A stretch of DNA of 64,000 bases, taken from assembly GCF_006717075.1 (NCBI RefSeq), contig NZ_VFQC01000002.1:538351-602350 (forward strand), given 5' to 3'. The notes below the pieces were generated by a model, which did not search any database, was not told where the DNA came from, and saw only the letters and a list, made by a program, of their open reading frames with translations. Shown here one piece after another: positions 3,370-14,035 of this stretch. Position 1 is the first letter of the stretch, and each line of letters opens with the position of its first letter. A program made the position numbers and the translations under genes. This DNA is from Haloactinospora alba (lineage in GTDB: Bacteria; Actinomycetota; Actinomycetes; Streptosporangiales; Streptosporangiaceae).

Positions 3370-3552
3370 TCGCGGGGCTCTTCTGTGATGCCTCGGGCGT
3401 GATCAGCTGTTACTAAAGAATCACGTCCGGGGCTTTTTGCTCTGCTACTTCAGTATCTCGCTACACCAGTTGATCTGCTAGTTGGGCTACAAGATCTGTG
3501 CTTTTCTTAGAAGCGGTAGCGGTATGTAGCGCCATTGGAGCATAATTGCGTC
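3370..3552. other. AT-richer divergent intergenic region
   Basis: About 180 bases between the minus-strand BldC-like operon and the plus-strand Scr1-type regulator. It is clearly less GC-rich than the chromosome around it and must hold both divergent promoters. I see no convincing RNA gene or long inverted repeat. Confidence 0.4.
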
Positions 3553-4359
3553 ATGGTGGAGCGCATCAACGAGAGATGGAAACGTTGGGGCGCCGAGTTG
3601 CAGCGGATACGGCTTCACTCTGGTGAAACAATGCAAAGCTTGGCGCAGAAAGCAGCTATTAGCCGCCAGTTGATCGGAAAGTACGAGCAAGGTACACGTG
3701 CACCAAGTCGGGATAAAGTGGACGCATTAGATGACGCTCTCGCTACAGGAGGGCGGTTGCGTCAGTATCGCGCGGAACTCATGGAAGACGCTCACATCCC
3801 AGCAGAGTTCCGTGATGCCTTGTTGATGGAACAGCGTAGCCAGGAGATCCGCGAGTATCATTCGGTTCTGATTCCTGGCCTGTTGCAAACAGCGAGTTAC
3901 GCACGTTCCCTCGTTTCTGCTCGTCGGGTCCGCGACACCCCCGAGCAGATAGAGCAGATTGTTGCTACTCGTACCGAACGTCTGAAACAGCTTCGTGAGA
4001 CCCGCCCCCTGCTCTGCTTCGTCGTAGACGAGGTGGCAATCTCCCGTACTGTCGGGGATGAGAAGATCATGCAGGAACAACGGAACTGGCTCATCGAGCT
4101 CGCTGAGCGGGGTACCATCCGACTGCAGTTGATAACGAACCTTCCCCGTCATCCAGGACTATGCTCACCCTTCCGGCTGATGAGCCTGGACGGTTCCCGG
4201 GCGGTAGCTTTTTTGGAAGATGCTCTCGGAGGGCGTAGCGCAACCAAGCCACAGGAAATAGCTGAACTCGGTACAGTGTTCGGTCTCCTCCAGGCTGAGG
4301 CGCTGTCGCCTGACGCGTCGATCGAGCGTATAAGGGAAACGAATCATGTACGAGCGTGA
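3553..4359 (+). CDS. Scr1-type XRE regulator with DUF5753 domain
   Basis: 268-residue regulator. Residues about 8-65 form an XRE helix-turn-helix (GETMQSLAQKAAISRQLIGK, then YEQGTRAPS). The remainder is the DUF5753 domain typical of Scr1-family antitoxin-like regulators: YHSVLIPGLLQTASYAR, the RTERLKQL helix and LRLMSLDGS-like strands, here as FRLMSLDGSRAVAFLEDA. These proteins sit directly before DUF397 genes in Streptomyces and relatives, and the pair has been compared to toxin-antitoxin or WhiJ-like developmental switches. The end overlaps the DUF397 start by 14 bases. The start is the ATG at 3553; a TTG at 3535 is possible. Base composition is visibly lower in GC than its neighbours, which suggests later acquisition. 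Confidence 0.88.
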   Translation: MVERINERWKRWGAELQRIRLHSGETMQSLAQKAAISRQLIGKYEQGTRAPSRDKVDALDDALATGGRLRQYRAELMEDAHIPAEFRDALLMEQRSQEIREYHSVLIPGLLQTASYARSLVSARRVRDTPEQIEQIVATRTERLKQLRETRPLLCFVVDEVAISRTVGDEKIMQEQRNWLIELAERGTIRLQLITNLPRHPGLCSPFRLMSLDGSRAVAFLEDALGGRSATKPQEIAELGTVFGLLQAEALSPDASIERIRETNHVRA

Positions 4360-5222: not shown

Positions 5223-5318
5223 GGGATCGGTCCGGGGACGTCGCTCCGGGCCGTCCGGACCGTGCGAAGGCATCGTCCGGCGTGAGCCGGGCCGATGGAG
5301 TGTGGGAGGAGACGGATC

Positions 5319-5504
5319 ATGCGCGAACGTGACTGGCACAAGTCGTCATACAGCGACGGTGGTGGCGGTAACTGCGTCGAGGTCCGGGAGTCGGCTGCCG
5401 GGGTCGCAGTCCGCGATTCCCGGAATCGGCGGGAGGGGAACCTGTCGTTCTCCGCGTCCGAGTGGCGGTCGTTCCTCGCCGGTGTGCGCGCCGACCGCCT
5501 GTGA
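5319..5504 (+). CDS. Second DUF397 protein, orphan copy
   Basis: 61 residues, DUF397, nearly the same as the protein encoded at 4346-4531: WHKSSYSDGGGGNCVEVRES in place of WHKSNHSDGGGGNCVEVRES and the same FSASEWR....VRADRL end. DNA similarity is also high across the gene. Unlike the first copy it has no adjacent Scr1 regulator, because a VOC gene stands upstream. GGAGGAGACGG precedes the ATG at 5319. It may act with the regulator at 3553 or with one elsewhere in the genome. Confidence 0.9.
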   Translation: MRERDWHKSSYSDGGGGNCVEVRESAAGVAVRDSRNRREGNLSFSASEWRSFLAGVRADRL

Positions 5505-6310: not shown

Positions 6311-6676
6311 GTGGGGCCGCGTCCAGGTGCCGGAGCGGGCGACGACGAGGACGCGGAGCCGGACTACCGGTTCACTCTGGCCAACGAGCGTACGTTCCTG
6401 GCGTGGATACGCACGGCGTTGGCGCTGATCGCCGGGGCGGTGGCGGTGCTGCACCTGTTGCCGCTGGACTGGCGGCCGGGGCTGAACCTGGCCGTTGGTA
6501 CCGGCCTCGCGGCTCTCGCCATCGTCATCACCGTGTACGCGCCGTGGCGGTGGATGCGGGTGCAGCGGGCGATGCGCCGGGGGCAGTCCCTTCCGGTGAG
6601 CGTGCTTCCGGCGATCACCACGGTCGGGGTCGCGTTGGTGTCCATCCTGGTCCTGTTCGGCAACTACTGGCCCTGA
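6311..6676 (+). CDS. DUF202 / YidH-like small membrane protein
   Basis: 121-residue integral membrane protein. The family motif LANERTFLAWIRTALALIAG (about residues 23-42) is present, with three predicted transmembrane helices (about residues 33-52, 58-77 and 98-117). The function of DUF202 proteins is not established. The GTG at 6311 has GGGAGGTG upstream. The last 13 bases overlap, tail to tail, the end of the epimerase gene on the other strand. Confidence 0.82.
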   Translation: MGPRPGAGAGDDEDAEPDYRFTLANERTFLAWIRTALALIAGAVAVLHLLPLDWRPGLNLAVGTGLAALAIVITVYAPWRWMRVQRAMRRGQSLPVSVLPAITTVGVALVSILVLFGNYWP

Positions 6677-7677
6677 GCGGGCACGGCGGGTGTGTGTTCC
6701 AACGGGGCGGTTGCCGGGGCGGACCGGGCGTGGGCGGCGACCGAGGTGATGATGTCGTCCAGGGCGCGCCGCGGCGCGTAGCCGATGAGCTCGCTGGCCA
6801 GTGACAGGTCGGGCATCCGCCGCTGCATGTCCTCGTACCCGTCGCCGTAGGCCTCCTGGTACGGGATGTGCCGGATCTCGCTGGAGGAGCCGGTCAGTTC
6901 GAGGACGCGGTCCGCCAGCCCCTTGATGGACACCTCCTCCCGGCCGCCCAGGTTGACCGCCGTGCTCGTCGCGGTCGGTGCGGTCAGCAGTTGGACCATG
7001 GCGGGTACGACGTCGAAGACCGAGCCGAAACACCGCCGCTGGGTGCCCTCCCCGTAGACGGTGATGGGTTCCCCGGACAGGGCCTGTTGGACGAAACGCG
7101 GTATCACCATCCCGTAGCGCCCGGTCTGGCGCGGTCCCACGATGTTGAAGAACCGGGTGATGACGCAGGGCAGTCCGGACTCCGTGGCGTAGATGTGCGC
7201 GACGAGCTCGTCGAGCCCTTTCGCCGCGGCGTAGGACCACCGACTCTTCAGCGGTGACCCCAGGATCCGGTCGTCGTTCTCGGTGAGGCCGTCGGAGTCG
7301 TTCTTGCCGTACACCTCGCTGGTGGAGGCGATGAGGAAGCGCGCCCGCTGCGCGGCGGCCGCCTCGATCACGTTCTCGGTTCCGTGCAGGTTGGTGCGCA
7401 GCGACCGCAGCGGCTGGTCCACGATGGTGTGGACACCGACGGCGGCCGCGAGGTGGAAGACGCTGTCACACTCGGCGACGAGCTCCCTCACCAGGTCGGC
7501 GTCCAGGATCGACCCCTGGACCATGCTAAAGGCCGGGTCGTCGGTGAGGTGAGCGATGTTGGAGACATGGCCGGTGGAGAGGTCGTCCAGAGCGACGACG
7601 CTGTGGCCGTGGGTGACCAGATAGTCGCACAGGTGCGAGCCGATGAAGCCGGCACCTCCAGTGACAAGGGCTTTCAC
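6664..7677 (-). CDS. Extended SDR nucleotide-sugar epimerase/dehydratase
   Basis: 337-residue extended short-chain dehydrogenase. The NAD-binding motif TGGAGFIGSHLCDYL is at about residues 6-20, the substrate-side STSEVYG at about 120-126, and the catalytic Tyr-Lys pair in SYAAAKG at about 146-152. This architecture is that of UDP-glucose 4-epimerase, UDP-glucuronate decarboxylase and related sugar-nucleotide enzymes; the exact reaction is not decided by sequence. The GTG at 7677 follows a GGGGGA. It is the last of three minus-strand genes with a PIG-L deacetylase and a WbqC protein, so it probably supplies a modified sugar to the same glycan or glycoconjugate. Confidence 0.85.
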   Translation of the reverse strand: MKALVTGGAGFIGSHLCDYLVTHGHSVVALDDLSTGHVSNIAHLTDDPAFSMVQGSILDADLVRELVAECDSVFHLAAAVGVHTIVDQPLRSLRTNLHGTENVIEAAAAQRARFLIASTSEVYGKNDSDGLTENDDRILGSPLKSRWSYAAAKGLDELVAHIYATESGLPCVITRFFNIVGPRQTGRYGMVIPRFVQQALSGEPITVYGEGTQRRCFGSVFDVVPAMVQLLTAPTATSTAVNLGGREEVSIKGLADRVLELTGSSSEIRHIPYQEAYGDGYEDMQRRMPDLSLASELIGYAPRRALDDIITSVAAHARSAPATAPLEHTPAVPAQGQ

Positions 7678-7748
7678 GTTTCCCCCTATCTCGGACGCGG
7701 ACGGGCGCGGGGCGGTTTGGCTCGGGTGGAACCGGTGGGCAGAGCGGG

Positions 7749-8459
7749 TCACGCGAGCGAGCGCATCGTGTGGAACCCCTCCGCCAGAGCGGTTCCGCCC
7801 TGCATCCCGCGCAGGACGGCGAGACTGCGTAATGTCAGCTCGGATCTGGTGTGCGGGTGTTCGTGGGTTTGTGTCCCGTACAGCCGCATCGCCGAGGTTT
7901 TGGCCCCGATATCGTGCTCGGAGAGCTCCACGAGCAGGTCGGGTGAGGTCACAGCCTCGTAGTGCCACTGGTCGGCGGCCTCCTCGTAGGCCAGCACCAG
8001 TGGGGGGTGGTACCGCGACCGCCTGTCCGAGGGCCGTAGCGCGGTGTGTGCTGCTTCCGCCGTCACCTGGTGGTCCTGGTTGTAGCTGCTCCGGTGCGGT
8101 GCGCACACCACGGTGGGTCGCAGCGCCCCGACGGACAGGGGGCTGGTCCGTTCGATGGTGTTCACCAGGTCGAAGCGGGGGAGCCGGTCGAGCTTGAGGT
8201 GGTACTCGTCGCCGGGGAAAGCGATGTCCCAACCGTCCCACCGGAAGTGGTCCGCGACCCTCTTGATCTCCGTGTAGCGTTCGTGGGCGCTGGAGAAGCC
8301 CGCGGCCGAGTTGTCGGCGGTGTCCCCCACGGTGAGGAACTGGACGTGGACCTCCGCTCCGGCCGCTTTGGCCTTGTGCATCAACCCGCCGCACCCCAGC
8401 GTCTCGTCGTCGGGGTGGGGTGCGAGGATCAGCAGCCGTTGCCTGGACCAGTCGATCAT
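7749..8459 (-). CDS. PIG-L / LmbE-family N-acetyl-sugar deacetylase
   Basis: 236-residue zinc-dependent deacetylase. The metal motif APHPDDETLGCGG is at about residues 13-25, and a downstream DHQ (YNQDHQVTAEAAHTAL) supplies another zinc-binding histidine. Family members remove N-acetyl groups from sugars such as GlcNAc-inositol (MshB), bacillithiol precursors or antibiotic pseudo-disaccharides. It lies between the epimerase and WbqC genes on the same strand, so the substrate is probably a sugar of that pathway. I chose the ATG at 8459 because the protein then begins just before the conserved strand LLILAPHPDDE; a longer start at 8525 adds 22 unconserved residues. It is not obviously MshB, because the neighbours are not mycothiol genes. 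Confidence 0.87.
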   Translation of the reverse strand: MIDWSRQRLLILAPHPDDETLGCGGLMHKAKAAGAEVHVQFLTVGDTADNSAAGFSSAHERYTEIKRVADHFRWDGWDIAFPGDEYHLKLDRLPRFDLVNTIERTSPLSVGALRPTVVCAPHRSSYNQDHQVTAEAAHTALRPSDRRSRYHPPLVLAYEEAADQWHYEAVTSPDLLVELSEHDIGAKTSAMRLYGTQTHEHPHTRSELTLRSLAVLRGMQGGTALAEGFHTMRSLA

Positions 8460-8602
8460 ATGCCGTATCCCGTCTGGGTGGAGAGAAGGATGTGAGGTAA
8501 CGGACGGGCCGGAGCGGGCGGCCATGGTGTTGTGGGCCCTGGGAGAGGGTACGGGTTTCTCCCCGCGTGCTGCGGGGCGGAACAGCGCCCGTCAGACAGG
8601 GC

Positions 8603-9304
8603 CTACGCGCGGGCACGGCGCAGGACCTCCCTGCCGTCCGGGCCGGCGTTCAGTAGCAGGTCCAGCGCCGCCATCCGGGGAAGGAACTCGTCGCGGCCGC
8701 GGGAGTGCTGCGGGTACTCGGGGTGGTGGAAGTCCTGCCACTCCACACTGATCCCGTAGCGGGATAGGATGTCGAGATCGAGGTAGGAGCGGGCCCCGTC
8801 GCCGGAGAGCATGGTGGTGGCGCCCACCTTCGCGGAGAGCTGGGCGAGTAGTTCGCTTTTCTGGCCGGGGAACTCCCCGAGCTCGCTGGCGCGGACGAGG
8901 GGCGTCGTGATGCCGAACCCGTCCAGGACGAGCCGAGTGGTCGCTATGGCCAGCTCGGTGAGGCTGGACCACTCCTGCTGGTACAGCCGCAGGATTTCCG
9001 TTCCGAACTGTCCCCAGAAGGGCGCCCCTCGGTAACAGTGTTCCGCTAGTGTTCGCTTGTGCTTTTCGTTCCATTGCTGCGTGTTGTCTATCTTTTTGTC
9101 CGAAATCAGTTCGCCGCGGCTCTGCTGAACCACCGGGACCGTGAGTAGCACGGGCCCGTTCCTCGCAGCGACGTAGTTGCGGTTCTGCCATCCTTTACGC
9201 TCGTATTGCACGTTGTCGAGAAGGATAAAAACATCGCTGCGGTCGACTTTGTCCACGAAGCCGAGCCACGGAAGGTAGTGCGGTTGGTGCATGGCGACGC
9301 GCAC
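8603..9304 (-). CDS. WbqC-family protein
   Basis: 233-residue WbqC-like protein. The family's N-terminal signature is clear: VAMHQPHYLPWLGFVDK, then DVFILLDNVQYERKGWQNRN. WbqC proteins occur in O-antigen, flagellin-glycan and antibiotic clusters and are suspected acyl- or aminoacyl-transferases on amino sugars; the biochemistry is largely unproven. The GTG at 9304 has GGAGGACGCAAC upstream. It heads a three-gene minus-strand set (WbqC, deacetylase, epimerase). A free amino group made by the deacetylase would be a logical acceptor for WbqC. A GT2 synthase is transcribed away on the other side of a 368-base gap. Confidence 0.85.
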   Translation of the reverse strand: MRVAMHQPHYLPWLGFVDKVDRSDVFILLDNVQYERKGWQNRNYVAARNGPVLLTVPVVQQSRGELISDKKIDNTQQWNEKHKRTLAEHCYRGAPFWGQFGTEILRLYQQEWSSLTELAIATTRLVLDGFGITTPLVRASELGEFPGQKSELLAQLSAKVGATTMLSGDGARSYLDLDILSRYGISVEWQDFHHPEYPQHSRGRDEFLPRMAALDLLLNAGPDGREVLRRARA

Positions 9305-9672
9305 GTTGCGTCCTCCCCGGCGTGGTTTCCTGCGTGCTCCCGGAGTGCGTGAGACGCTTCCTACAGCGGTGCGGTTGTCCGGGGGAAGAGCCCGACACTC
9401 CTCGGACGCCCCTCCAGGGCGCGGTGTCCAGCGGATTCCTGGATTCGGCTGCAATCGGCACAGAATGCGAAAAACCCTTGTACAGCGCTGGTATGTTTCT
9501 TCTTCCCGCTATATTGCATCAAGGGGGGAAGTAACCCGCAAGCCTATATGTGGCGATTCGGAAGACCTGCGTGAGTCGGTGTGCTAAACATGCTTTGACC
9601 TCGATATTTTCCGCTGATGCGTAGGATTTTTCACTTCTTCTCACCGCAGAAACGCACTCTGGAGGACGACTG
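9305..9672. other. Divergent promoter region of the glycan cluster
   Basis: 368 bases between the WbqC gene (minus) and the GT2 synthase (plus). The half nearest the synthase is unusually AT-rich for this chromosome, with TATA-like stretches near 9510-9550 and a T-rich block at 9605-9640. Promoters for both directions are expected here. I see no open frame with coding bias. Confidence 0.45.
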
Positions 9673-11169
9673 GTGCGTACGGCACATTTCCTCGGAAACT
9701 GCCTAGGTGCGGCGCTCGCGCTCGCCGTCCTGGTGGTGTTCGTCACGCAGTGGCTGCGGTTCGTCCTCAGCGTGGACGGGGGGACCGGCCTGGCAGCGCT
9801 GTTCCTGTGGCTGGTGCTCGGCGTCAACATCACGGTGTGGGCCACGGTCGGGATGGTGCGCCTCGGTGACGACTCGGTGCGCGCCCTGGCCGACCGCACG
9901 AGACACCGGAGACAGACGTGGCGTTTCGGGAAACGGGGGCGCCACCACTCGGGAAGAGCGCGCCGCACCCCCGCCGGTCCCGAGGCAGAGGGAAGAACGG
10001 ACAGCGGTTCGGCACCCGCCACCACGTCCGCACCGCAGGACCTCACCCTGGCCGTGATCATCCCCGCCCACAACGAGGAACCCGTCATCGCCGACGCGAT
10101 CTCCTCGGCGCTGCGGCTGTTCCACCGCCGGGACGTCTACGTGGTGTCGGACAGCTCCCAGGACAGAACAGCCGACATCGCCGCGGAGACCGGGGTGAAC
10201 GTTCTGGAGCTGCTCACCAACTACGGCAAGGCGGGCGCGCTCGACGCGGCCATCGAGACGTTCGAACTCACCGAACGCTACGACGGCGTCGTCCTGCTGG
10301 ACGCGGACACCGAACTCGACTCCGCCTACGTGCGCGGGGTGCGGGAACAACTGAGCGACCCGAAGGTGGCCGCCGTGGCCGGGTTCGTCGTCGCCGACTG
10401 GGACCCGGCGGGGCGGACCGTGGTAGGCCGGCTGATCTCAGCCTACCGGGACCGGCTGTACTGGATGCTGCAGTACCTGCTGCGGTTCGGCCAGACGTGG
10501 CGCCACACCAGCGTCACCTCCATCGTCCCCGGGTTCGCCAGCGCGTACCGCTCCAGTGTGCTGCGGCAGCTGAACATCAACCCCAAGGGGCTGGTCATCG
10601 AGGACTTCAACATGACGTTCGAGGTCCACCACAAGCGTCTCGGCCGGATCTCCATGCGCCCGGGGACGAAGGCCTACTGCCAGGACCCGTTCACGTTCGG
10701 CGACTACGTCAAGCAGGTGCGCCGCTGGACCCTGGGGTTCTGGCAGACGGTGCGGCTGCACGGTCCGTGGCTGAGCCTGTTCTGGGTTGCCCTGGCCTGC
10801 TACATCCTGGAGATCCTGTTCGTCGCGCTGCTGCTCCTGGCGACGGCGTGCCTGGCGGTGTTCACCCTGCTCCCGGTGCTCACCGACGGGGCGGTGCTCA
10901 GCCTGGGGTGGTACGCCGCCGGCTACGAGGCGGTGACCGCCGCTCTCCCACTGACCGTGGTCGCGGTCGGTCTCCTCGTCCCGGACTACATCCTCACCTG
11001 CGTACTGGCTACCCTCCGGCGCCGGCCGAGCTACCTGGTGTACGGACTGTTCTTCCTGCCGATGCGGCTCGTCGACGCCTACCTCATCCTGCGCACCATC
11101 CCGCAGTCGTGGACCACCGCCTCCGACGGCCGGTGGAGCAGCCCCGACAGGGCCGCCACGCGGTTGTGA
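9673..11169 (+). CDS. Processive family 2 glycosyltransferase (PgaC / hyaluronan-synthase-like)
   Basis: 498-residue membrane glycosyltransferase. Two N-terminal helices (about residues 7-25 and 37-57) precede a GT2 domain: VIIPAHNEEPVIADAI (about 129-144), the metal-binding DADTELD (about 212-218), the acceptor-site VIEDFNMTFEVHHK (about 314-327) and the processivity motif KQVRRWTLGFWQ (about 346-357, QxxRW type). At least four C-terminal helices form the export channel. This is the layout of poly-N-acetylglucosamine and hyaluronan synthases, which polymerise a UDP-sugar and extrude the chain. The polymer is unknown. A linker of about 50 residues rich in Arg and Gly separates the N-terminal helices from the catalytic domain. 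GGAGGACGACTG precedes the GTG. Confidence 0.87.
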   Translation: MRTAHFLGNCLGAALALAVLVVFVTQWLRFVLSVDGGTGLAALFLWLVLGVNITVWATVGMVRLGDDSVRALADRTRHRRQTWRFGKRGRHHSGRARRTPAGPEAEGRTDSGSAPATTSAPQDLTLAVIIPAHNEEPVIADAISSALRLFHRRDVYVVSDSSQDRTADIAAETGVNVLELLTNYGKAGALDAAIETFELTERYDGVVLLDADTELDSAYVRGVREQLSDPKVAAVAGFVVADWDPAGRTVVGRLISAYRDRLYWMLQYLLRFGQTWRHTSVTSIVPGFASAYRSSVLRQLNINPKGLVIEDFNMTFEVHHKRLGRISMRPGTKAYCQDPFTFGDYVKQVRRWTLGFWQTVRLHGPWLSLFWVALACYILEILFVALLLLATACLAVFTLLPVLTDGAVLSLGWYAAGYEAVTAALPLTVVAVGLLVPDYILTCVLATLRRRPSYLVYGLFFLPMRLVDAYLILRTIPQSWTTASDGRWSSPDRAATRL

Positions 11170-13013: not shown

Positions 13014-14035
13014 ATGTCCAACGGAACCCCGGCGACGGGTCGGAACCGCCGCGACCAGCTCCGCGACTTCCTGCGTACCCGCCGGGCGCGGATCGCGCCC
13101 GGTGACGTCGGCATGGCGGCAGGAGGCAGGCGCCGCACCCCGGGGCTGCGGCATGAGGAGGTCGCCACCCTGGCCGGGGTGGGTGTGTCCTGGTACACCT
13201 GGCTCGAACAGGGCCGCGACATCAACGTATCGGTCGAGGTACTCGACGCGATCAGCGCGACGTTGCGTCTGACCGGCCCCGAACGCGCGCACCTGTACAC
13301 CCTGGCCGGGCTCAATCCCCCACGTACCGGCGGGGAGCACGAAACCACAGTCCCTCCGGAGCTGATGCGGCTGCTCGACGGGTGGACGCCGCGCCCCGCG
13401 CTGCTCCAGGACCGGTACTGGAACCTGCTCGCGACCAACGGGGCCGCGCGGACGGTGTTCGGCTACGAGGGGACCGATGCCAACTGCCTGGTCGCGTTCT
13501 TCACCAGCGACCGGTACCGCGCCGCCCACGTCCACTGGGCGTCAGCGGCGCCGGGGGTTGTCGCCGCGTTCCAGCCGCACGGCGACGTCTCCGAGGCCGA
13601 GTTCGACCGGACGGTGAACACCAACGTCAAGGGAGTGTTCTTCGCCATCCAGAAGGCCGTTCCGCTGCTGACCGACGGCGCGGCTGTCGTGATCAACGCG
13701 TCGTGGACGCTGCACCGCGGTCTCCCCGGCGCCTCGCTCTACTCGGCGACGAAAGCGGCGGTGCACAACCTGACACACACCCTCGCGGCGGAACTGGGAC
13801 CCGAGGGAGTACGAGTCAACTCCGTGAGTCCCGGCTACATCGAGACCGCGATGTTCCACGAGAAGTGCCGGTCGAGGAACAGCCCTCCGTCGTCGCCGGG
13901 GTCGTCTCCGGGCGTCTCGGCACCTCCGAGGACGTCGCCAACGCTGTCGCCTTCCTCGCCTCGCACGAGGCCTCCTACGTCAACGGGCAGGACCTGGTCG
14001 TCGACGGTGGCCTGGTGTCCTCCATCCCGGGATGA
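13014..14035 (+). pseudogene. Fusion of an MmyB-type XRE regulator with a short-chain dehydrogenase, frameshifted
   Basis: The first about 175 codons encode an XRE helix-turn-helix (RRTPGLRHEEVATLAGVGVS, then YTWLEQGRDINVS) plus the start of an MmyB-like ligand domain (LLDGWTPRPALLQDRYWNLL, then ATNGAARTVFG). The frame runs straight on into the middle of a classical SDR: FDRTVNTNVKGVFFAIQKAV, then the catalytic SLYSATKAAVHNL and VRVNSVSPGYIETAM. The SDR N-terminal NAD-binding GxxxGxG part and the regulator C-terminus are missing, as after an internal deletion. At about 13850-13870 the reading frame shifts, and the SDR end (LGTSEDVANAVAFLASHEAS, then VNGQDLVVDGG) continues in another frame to a stop at 14035. 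Almost certainly non-functional as an enzyme. Confidence 0.85.

Follow-up and report, generated by a model that had tools for sequence, protein, structure and literature searches.

WbqC family proteins occur in O-antigen loci in a sugar-modification context, where a glycyl-transfer role is ascribed to them. In bacillithiol and mycothiol synthesis, the deacetylase BshB or MshB acts first, and BshC or MshC then joins cysteine to the amino sugar; BshC activity in vitro was still undemonstrated as of a 2015 review (PMC4360819). Streptomyces MatB is a GT2 glycosyltransferase fused to an extracellular CE4 deacetylase domain (PMC5972031). In Bacillus cereus NVH 391-98, UDP-GlcNAc is converted to UDP-N-acetylxylosamine by a dehydrogenase and decarboxylase pair (PMC5078965).

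The locus described here combines an SDR, a PIG-L family de-N-acetylase, a WbqC family protein, and a membrane GT2. The original prediction knew of no characterised locus with this set, and searches of the openly licensed literature found none.

Gene Content and Layout of the Locus

The window (the whole stretch of DNA analysed, 64 kb) carries three of the genes as a minus-strand operon. The first gene (8603-9304) encodes the WbqC family protein (PF08889, 223 bits). The second (7749-8459, or to 8525 via an upstream ATG) encodes the PIG-L family protein, with 63 bits against a PF02585 cut-off of 28.2, which places it in that family. The third (6664-7677) encodes an extended SDR of the epimerase/dehydratase/decarboxylase family (PF01370, 193 bits). 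The GT2 gene (9673-11169, plus strand) is divergent from the operon and encodes a membrane protein of the QxxRW, processive synthase-like kind (PF13632, PF00535, and PF13641, 60-67 bits). Transmembrane-like segments are absent from the SDR, PIG-L, and WbqC proteins, and the GT2 is hydrophobic at both ends. The Pfam domains and motifs agree with the predicted layout of a minus-strand operon and a divergent GT2 with an intact QxxRW.

The operon and the GT2 gene are separated by a 368 bp intergenic region (9305-9672) that holds both start regions. Ribosome-binding-like sequences can be read upstream of the SDR, WbqC, and GT2 starts. An element like GTATTGCATCAA lies at 9511-9522, with GCAAG about 15 bases downstream. 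Of 25 divergent intergenic regions from orthologous loci, 19 contain such an element; in the window it occurs only once, and it is possibly a promoter or operator.

Two other features of the window were noted. A DUF5753/XRE regulator (Pfam) is encoded at 3535-4359, and a small DUF397-like ORF was recognized by eye at 5295-5504; this is a common actinomycete arrangement. At 13014-13900, a single frame begins, by eye, like an XRE-type regulator and continues as a short-chain dehydrogenase, of which it has the C-terminal half, after which similarity is lost. This frame is possibly a deletion-fusion remnant.

Conservation within the GTDB Family

The family sample comprised 150 genomes of the GTDB family, and the genome of the window is counted among the 35 carriers given here. 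WbqC orthologues are present in 35 of the 150 genomes at an identity of at least 58%. The identical 35 genomes carry orthologues of PIG-L (at least 68% identity) and of the GT2 (at least 55% over full-length matches), the GT2 gene of one genome (G025) being split across two contigs. The gene order SDR-PIG-L-WbqC-GT2 is constant where the contig permits; in G039, the contig ends between WbqC and GT2. The set usually stands between DUF202 and DUF3817-SURF1. Because the same arrangement of four genes is found in 35 genomes of the family sample, it is not due to chance, and the SDR, PIG-L, WbqC, and GT2 genes form a real conserved unit. The expected conservation of the SDR/PIG-L/WbqC triplet was thus borne out by the neighbourhood search.

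The named genomes with the set are species of Nocardiopsis, Streptomonospora, Actinorugispora, Murinocardiopsis, Marinactinospora, and Allosalinactinospora. Further carriers are one more Nocardiopsaceae strain and two MAGs. Pairwise identity in any one of the four proteins correlates with that in the others (r of 0.73-0.86). In several genera of the Nocardiopsaceae group no sampled genome lacks the locus, which is therefore a candidate core surface-glycan system of the Nocardiopsaceae. One genome of the same group (G331; L331:6007-7028) has the SDR, PIG-L, and GT2 genes and a gap without WbqC, so WbqC is dispensable to the set.

Arrangements across the Class

The GT2 was predicted to be adjacent in relatives, and it was found there in two transcriptional layouts. 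One is the divergent layout of the window. The other occurs in family f19, where five loci carry co-directional SDR, PIG-L, WbqC, and GT2 genes with a GH18 glycosidase gene after them. The GT2 match of one of these loci (L207) is in two pieces, and in a sixth f19 locus the contig ends after WbqC. By eye, the neighbours of the operon in two f19 loci (L174 and L175) resemble genes for universal stress proteins and sensor kinases. These neighbours hint at a stress- or dormancy-linked glycan.

The SDR and GT2 also occur without the other two genes. At L164-L167, the SDR (57-60% identity), followed by a GH18 gene and a GT2 gene (the GT2 at 40-44% identity), is part of a larger exopolysaccharide cluster from which PIG-L and WbqC are absent. 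A Pfam scan of L175 and L164 confirmed the GH18 assignment. Six genomes of families f3, f26, f33, and f36 have a nucleotide-sugar dehydrogenase next to the SDR and the GT2 within a few kilobases. Two of the associated dehydrogenases were scanned (L164 and L210), and in both the UDP-N-acetylhexosamine type scores above the UDP-glucose type. A protein search of the class sample at an E value of 1e-50 or better gave 33 genomes with the GT2, and 32 of these have the SDR close by. The GT2 protein of the remaining genome (G379), which has no SDR nearby, is unusual in its length of 966 residues. Because of these varied arrangements, the SDR and GT2 are the core of the system, and PIG-L and WbqC are a recurrent addition. 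The pairing of SDR and GT2 in relatives with a UDP-HexNAc-type dehydrogenase, a GH18, or both points to an exported N-acetylhexosamine-derived glycan.

In the WbqC tree, other WbqC groups separate the Nocardiopsaceae from f19 (split support 91/81); the PIG-L tree gives no resolution at this split. PIG-L and WbqC may have joined the core once, or possibly separately in the two families.

The surroundings of the set bear on whether the GT2 and the operon work together at all. They could belong to separate pathways and be neighbours through inherited gene order in a stable region, and the DUF202, DUF3817, SURF1, and hisG surroundings are indeed conserved across the same genomes. The co-directional four genes of f19 stand in a different setting, however, and in all but one of the class genomes with the GT2, across several families, the SDR is its neighbour. 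Separate pathways are therefore very unlikely.

The SDR

The SDR contains the residues TSEVYG, YxxxK, and RRxPD, which align to human UXS and are invariant in six relatives. Its closest PDB relatives are UDP-glucuronate decarboxylases, at about 181 bits. The catalytic residues of UXS and UXNAcS enzymes are present (the S-E of TSEVYG, YxxxK, and the R of RxPD), although these residues suit some dehydratases too. Scores against equivalog models are sub-threshold, with 140 bits against 294 for PRK11908 and 152 against 475 for LegB. Elsewhere in the host genome there are two dehydrogenase candidates, one of the HexNAc type and the other of the UDP-glucose type.

One further setting of SDR and PIG-L homologues was noted. 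At L172:6700-11100, homologues of the SDR (59%) and PIG-L (35%) are found inside what appears by eye to be a 2-deoxystreptamine aminoglycoside-like cluster with a cyclase-like gene. One DegT aminotransferase of this cluster was confirmed by Pfam.

PIG-L and Its Pairing with WbqC

The PIG-L protein has the zinc-site motifs APHPDDE and SYNQDH, of which APHPDDE and QDH are kept in the orthologues. Assignment as BshB was rejected, with 40.3 bits against a cut-off of 182.5 for BshB1 and 31.5 against 195.25 for BshB2. Assignment as MshB was likewise rejected (21 bits against 224.35), and a genuine MshB gene lies elsewhere in the genome (C1:3005054, 404.6 bits).

The association of PIG-L with WbqC extends to viruses and to other actinomycetes. 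The viral set consisted of 76 IMG/VR loci with WbqC (L226-L301) and up to 3 kb of flank. Of these loci, 31 have a PIG-L homologue no more than 3 kb from WbqC, always on the same strand. The 80 viral SDR loci that served as a control have none. The Fisher value of 4e-12 for this comparison is indicative only, because the viral loci are not independent. Many of the 31 loci also hold DegT or SDR genes.

WbqC adjoins PIG-L in other actinomycetes as well (L168, L169, L054, L055, and L057, also L170 and L171; Pfam check in L168, L169, and L171). These clusters contain GT4, QueD/QueE-like, phosphoribosyltransferase, DegT, and 5'-3' exonuclease genes, not all of them in each cluster. The order GT4-PIG-L-WbqC seen in other actinomycetes resembles the layout of bshA-bshB-bshC.

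The Predicted Fold of WbqC

With 222.7 bits against the PF08889 cut-off of 21.3, the protein belongs to the WbqC family. Searches of PDB and Pfam with the single sequence or a profile found only its own family, and searches of the openly licensed literature found no mechanism for WbqC. The structure was predicted from 36 sequences with a mean pLDDT of 95.4. The model aligns with BshC (4wbd) over 218 residues with an rmsd of 3.5 and a VIA-align Z of 13.5. The runners-up in VIA-align, class I tRNA synthetases and phosphopantetheine adenylyltransferases, reach a Z of 7.3 or less. A query for the BshC loop served solely to find that loop in 4wbd.

Several results count against the link to BshC. 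The Z value comes from a single aligner, Foldseek found nothing significant with the same model, and BshC was matched neither by single sequences nor by profile. Membership of WbqC in the BshC family by sequence was rejected on these single-sequence and profile comparisons. On the VIA-align match the predicted fold looks BshC-like, and the reading of the locus given below suggests a role for the WbqC family.

WbqC proteins occur in many bacteria and on viral contigs, and the deacetylase-then-ligase pairing together with the BshC-like fold gives them a concrete and testable function. WbqC may be a minimal BshC-like ligase that aminoacylates amino sugars freed by PIG-L, the pair building an exported aminoacylated amino-sugar polymer. 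This specific proposal is tentative, and we consider it possible but on the unlikely side. No described example of such a polymer as a bacterial surface glycan was found in the openly licensed literature.

The original prediction also had PIG-L supply the amine to WbqC. The pairing in unrelated contexts and the predicted fold speak for this idea.

The GT2 and the Nature of the Product

The GT2 motifs PxHNE, DAD, EDFNMT, and QVRRW are intact and invariant in relatives. The protein thus has the D, DxD, (E)D, and QxxRW motifs of the processive QxxRW GT2 enzymes together with membrane segments. In a profile search against PDB, hyaluronan synthase spans through the QxxRW region. The PDB relatives also include non-processive polyprenyl-phosphate and dolichol-phosphate sugar transferases, which cover the N-terminal part of the profile only. 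The nearest NCBIfam model is PgaC/IcaA (61.3 bits against a cut-off of 422.3). The GT2 may make and export a polymer.

The non-processive relatives would fit a GT2 that is not a polymer synthase and instead loads a membrane lipid or polyprenyl carrier with a single sugar or a few, with the SDR, PIG-L, and WbqC shaping the sugar for a glycolipid or small glycoconjugate. The locus has no export partner or chain-length genes, and PIG-L/WbqC pairs are found elsewhere in small-molecule type clusters with GT4, both of which would suit such a product. Against it, QxxRW and the membrane segments at both ends are kept in all relatives, hyaluronan synthase, but not the non-processive enzymes, is matched as far as QxxRW, and a GH18 lies beside the GT2 in relatives. 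A glycolipid or small glycoconjugate is accordingly judged unlikely.

A polymer product could also be PNAG-like and partly deacetylated, with the free amines left by PIG-L as the end state and WbqC as an accessory. It is consistent with this that PgaC/IcaA is the nearest model, that G331 keeps the rest of the set without WbqC, and that sequence comparison connects WbqC with no characterised transferase. The score of the GT2 is far under the PgaC/IcaA cut-off, however, and PIG-L is without a signal or membrane segment, as opposed to the extracellular CE4 domain of MatB (PMC5972031). WbqC is also kept in 35 genomes of the family and has a BshC-like predicted fold. We regard a PNAG-like end product as quite unlikely, and less probable than the glycolipid or small glycoconjugate.

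Proposed Pathway

The preferred reading is that the four genes are one functional unit making an exported amino-sugar glycan, the sugars of which are deacetylated and then capped. A UDP-N-acetylhexosamine derivative is the most likely starting point, from which the SDR would prepare the nucleotide sugar. PIG-L, acting in the cytoplasm, would then strip the N-acetyl group and expose an amine, and WbqC would cap the free amine with a new group, possibly an amino acid. A WbqC step after PIG-L would follow the same logic as BshB and then BshC in bacillithiol synthesis. The membrane GT2 would polymerise the remodelled sugar or transfer it outward.

This reading draws on the conserved linkage, the intact active-site motifs, the PIG-L/WbqC association, and the predicted WbqC fold. 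The clusters at L164-L167, without PIG-L and WbqC, and G331, without WbqC, count against a unit of all four genes, and we hold the chances for and against the reading to be about equal. From this evidence we infer the substrates, the order of the steps, the added group, the formation of a polymer, and its export. With the chemistry deduced in this way, support attaches to the linkage and the logic and does not extend to the identity of the product. The chemistry of the locus could represent a new type of substituted exopolysaccharide.

Comparison with Known Systems

The O-antigen loci with WbqC differ from this locus, which lacks the O-antigen polymerase, flippase, and aminotransferase genes. 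The UXNAcS system of B. cereus (PMC5078965) is similar in that relatives of the locus combine a HexNAc-type dehydrogenase with a decarboxylase-like SDR. It differs in that no dehydrogenase is present in the locus, and the likeness is one of enzyme type.

The PNAG systems (pga, ica, and Streptomyces matAB) share with the locus a GT2 of related kind and amino-sugar N-deacetylation. They differ in the deacetylase, which here is a cytoplasmic-looking PIG-L. No CE4 (NodB-type) deacetylase was found by Pfam among the four genes or the flanking DUF202, DUF3817, and SURF1. Membership of the GT2 in the PNAG synthases was rejected on its PgaC/IcaA score and the absence of CE4 from the locus. The earlier statement that no classical pga partner is present holds for the locus itself, but relatives carry GH18, and at least one of them has a confirmed NodB-type polysaccharide deacetylase.

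The bacillithiol and mycothiol pathways differ in using the GT4-type BshA and MshA where this locus has a GT2 membrane enzyme. PIG-L is below the BshB1, BshB2, and MshB cut-offs, WbqC is without a BshC sequence match, and membership in either pathway was rejected on the curated deacetylase cut-offs. The likeness would lie in the order of the enzymes, those pathways using a PIG-L-type deacetylase to free an amino-sugar amine and then an enzyme with a HUP/class I aaRS-like fold to add an amino acid (PMC4360819, PMC2922099).
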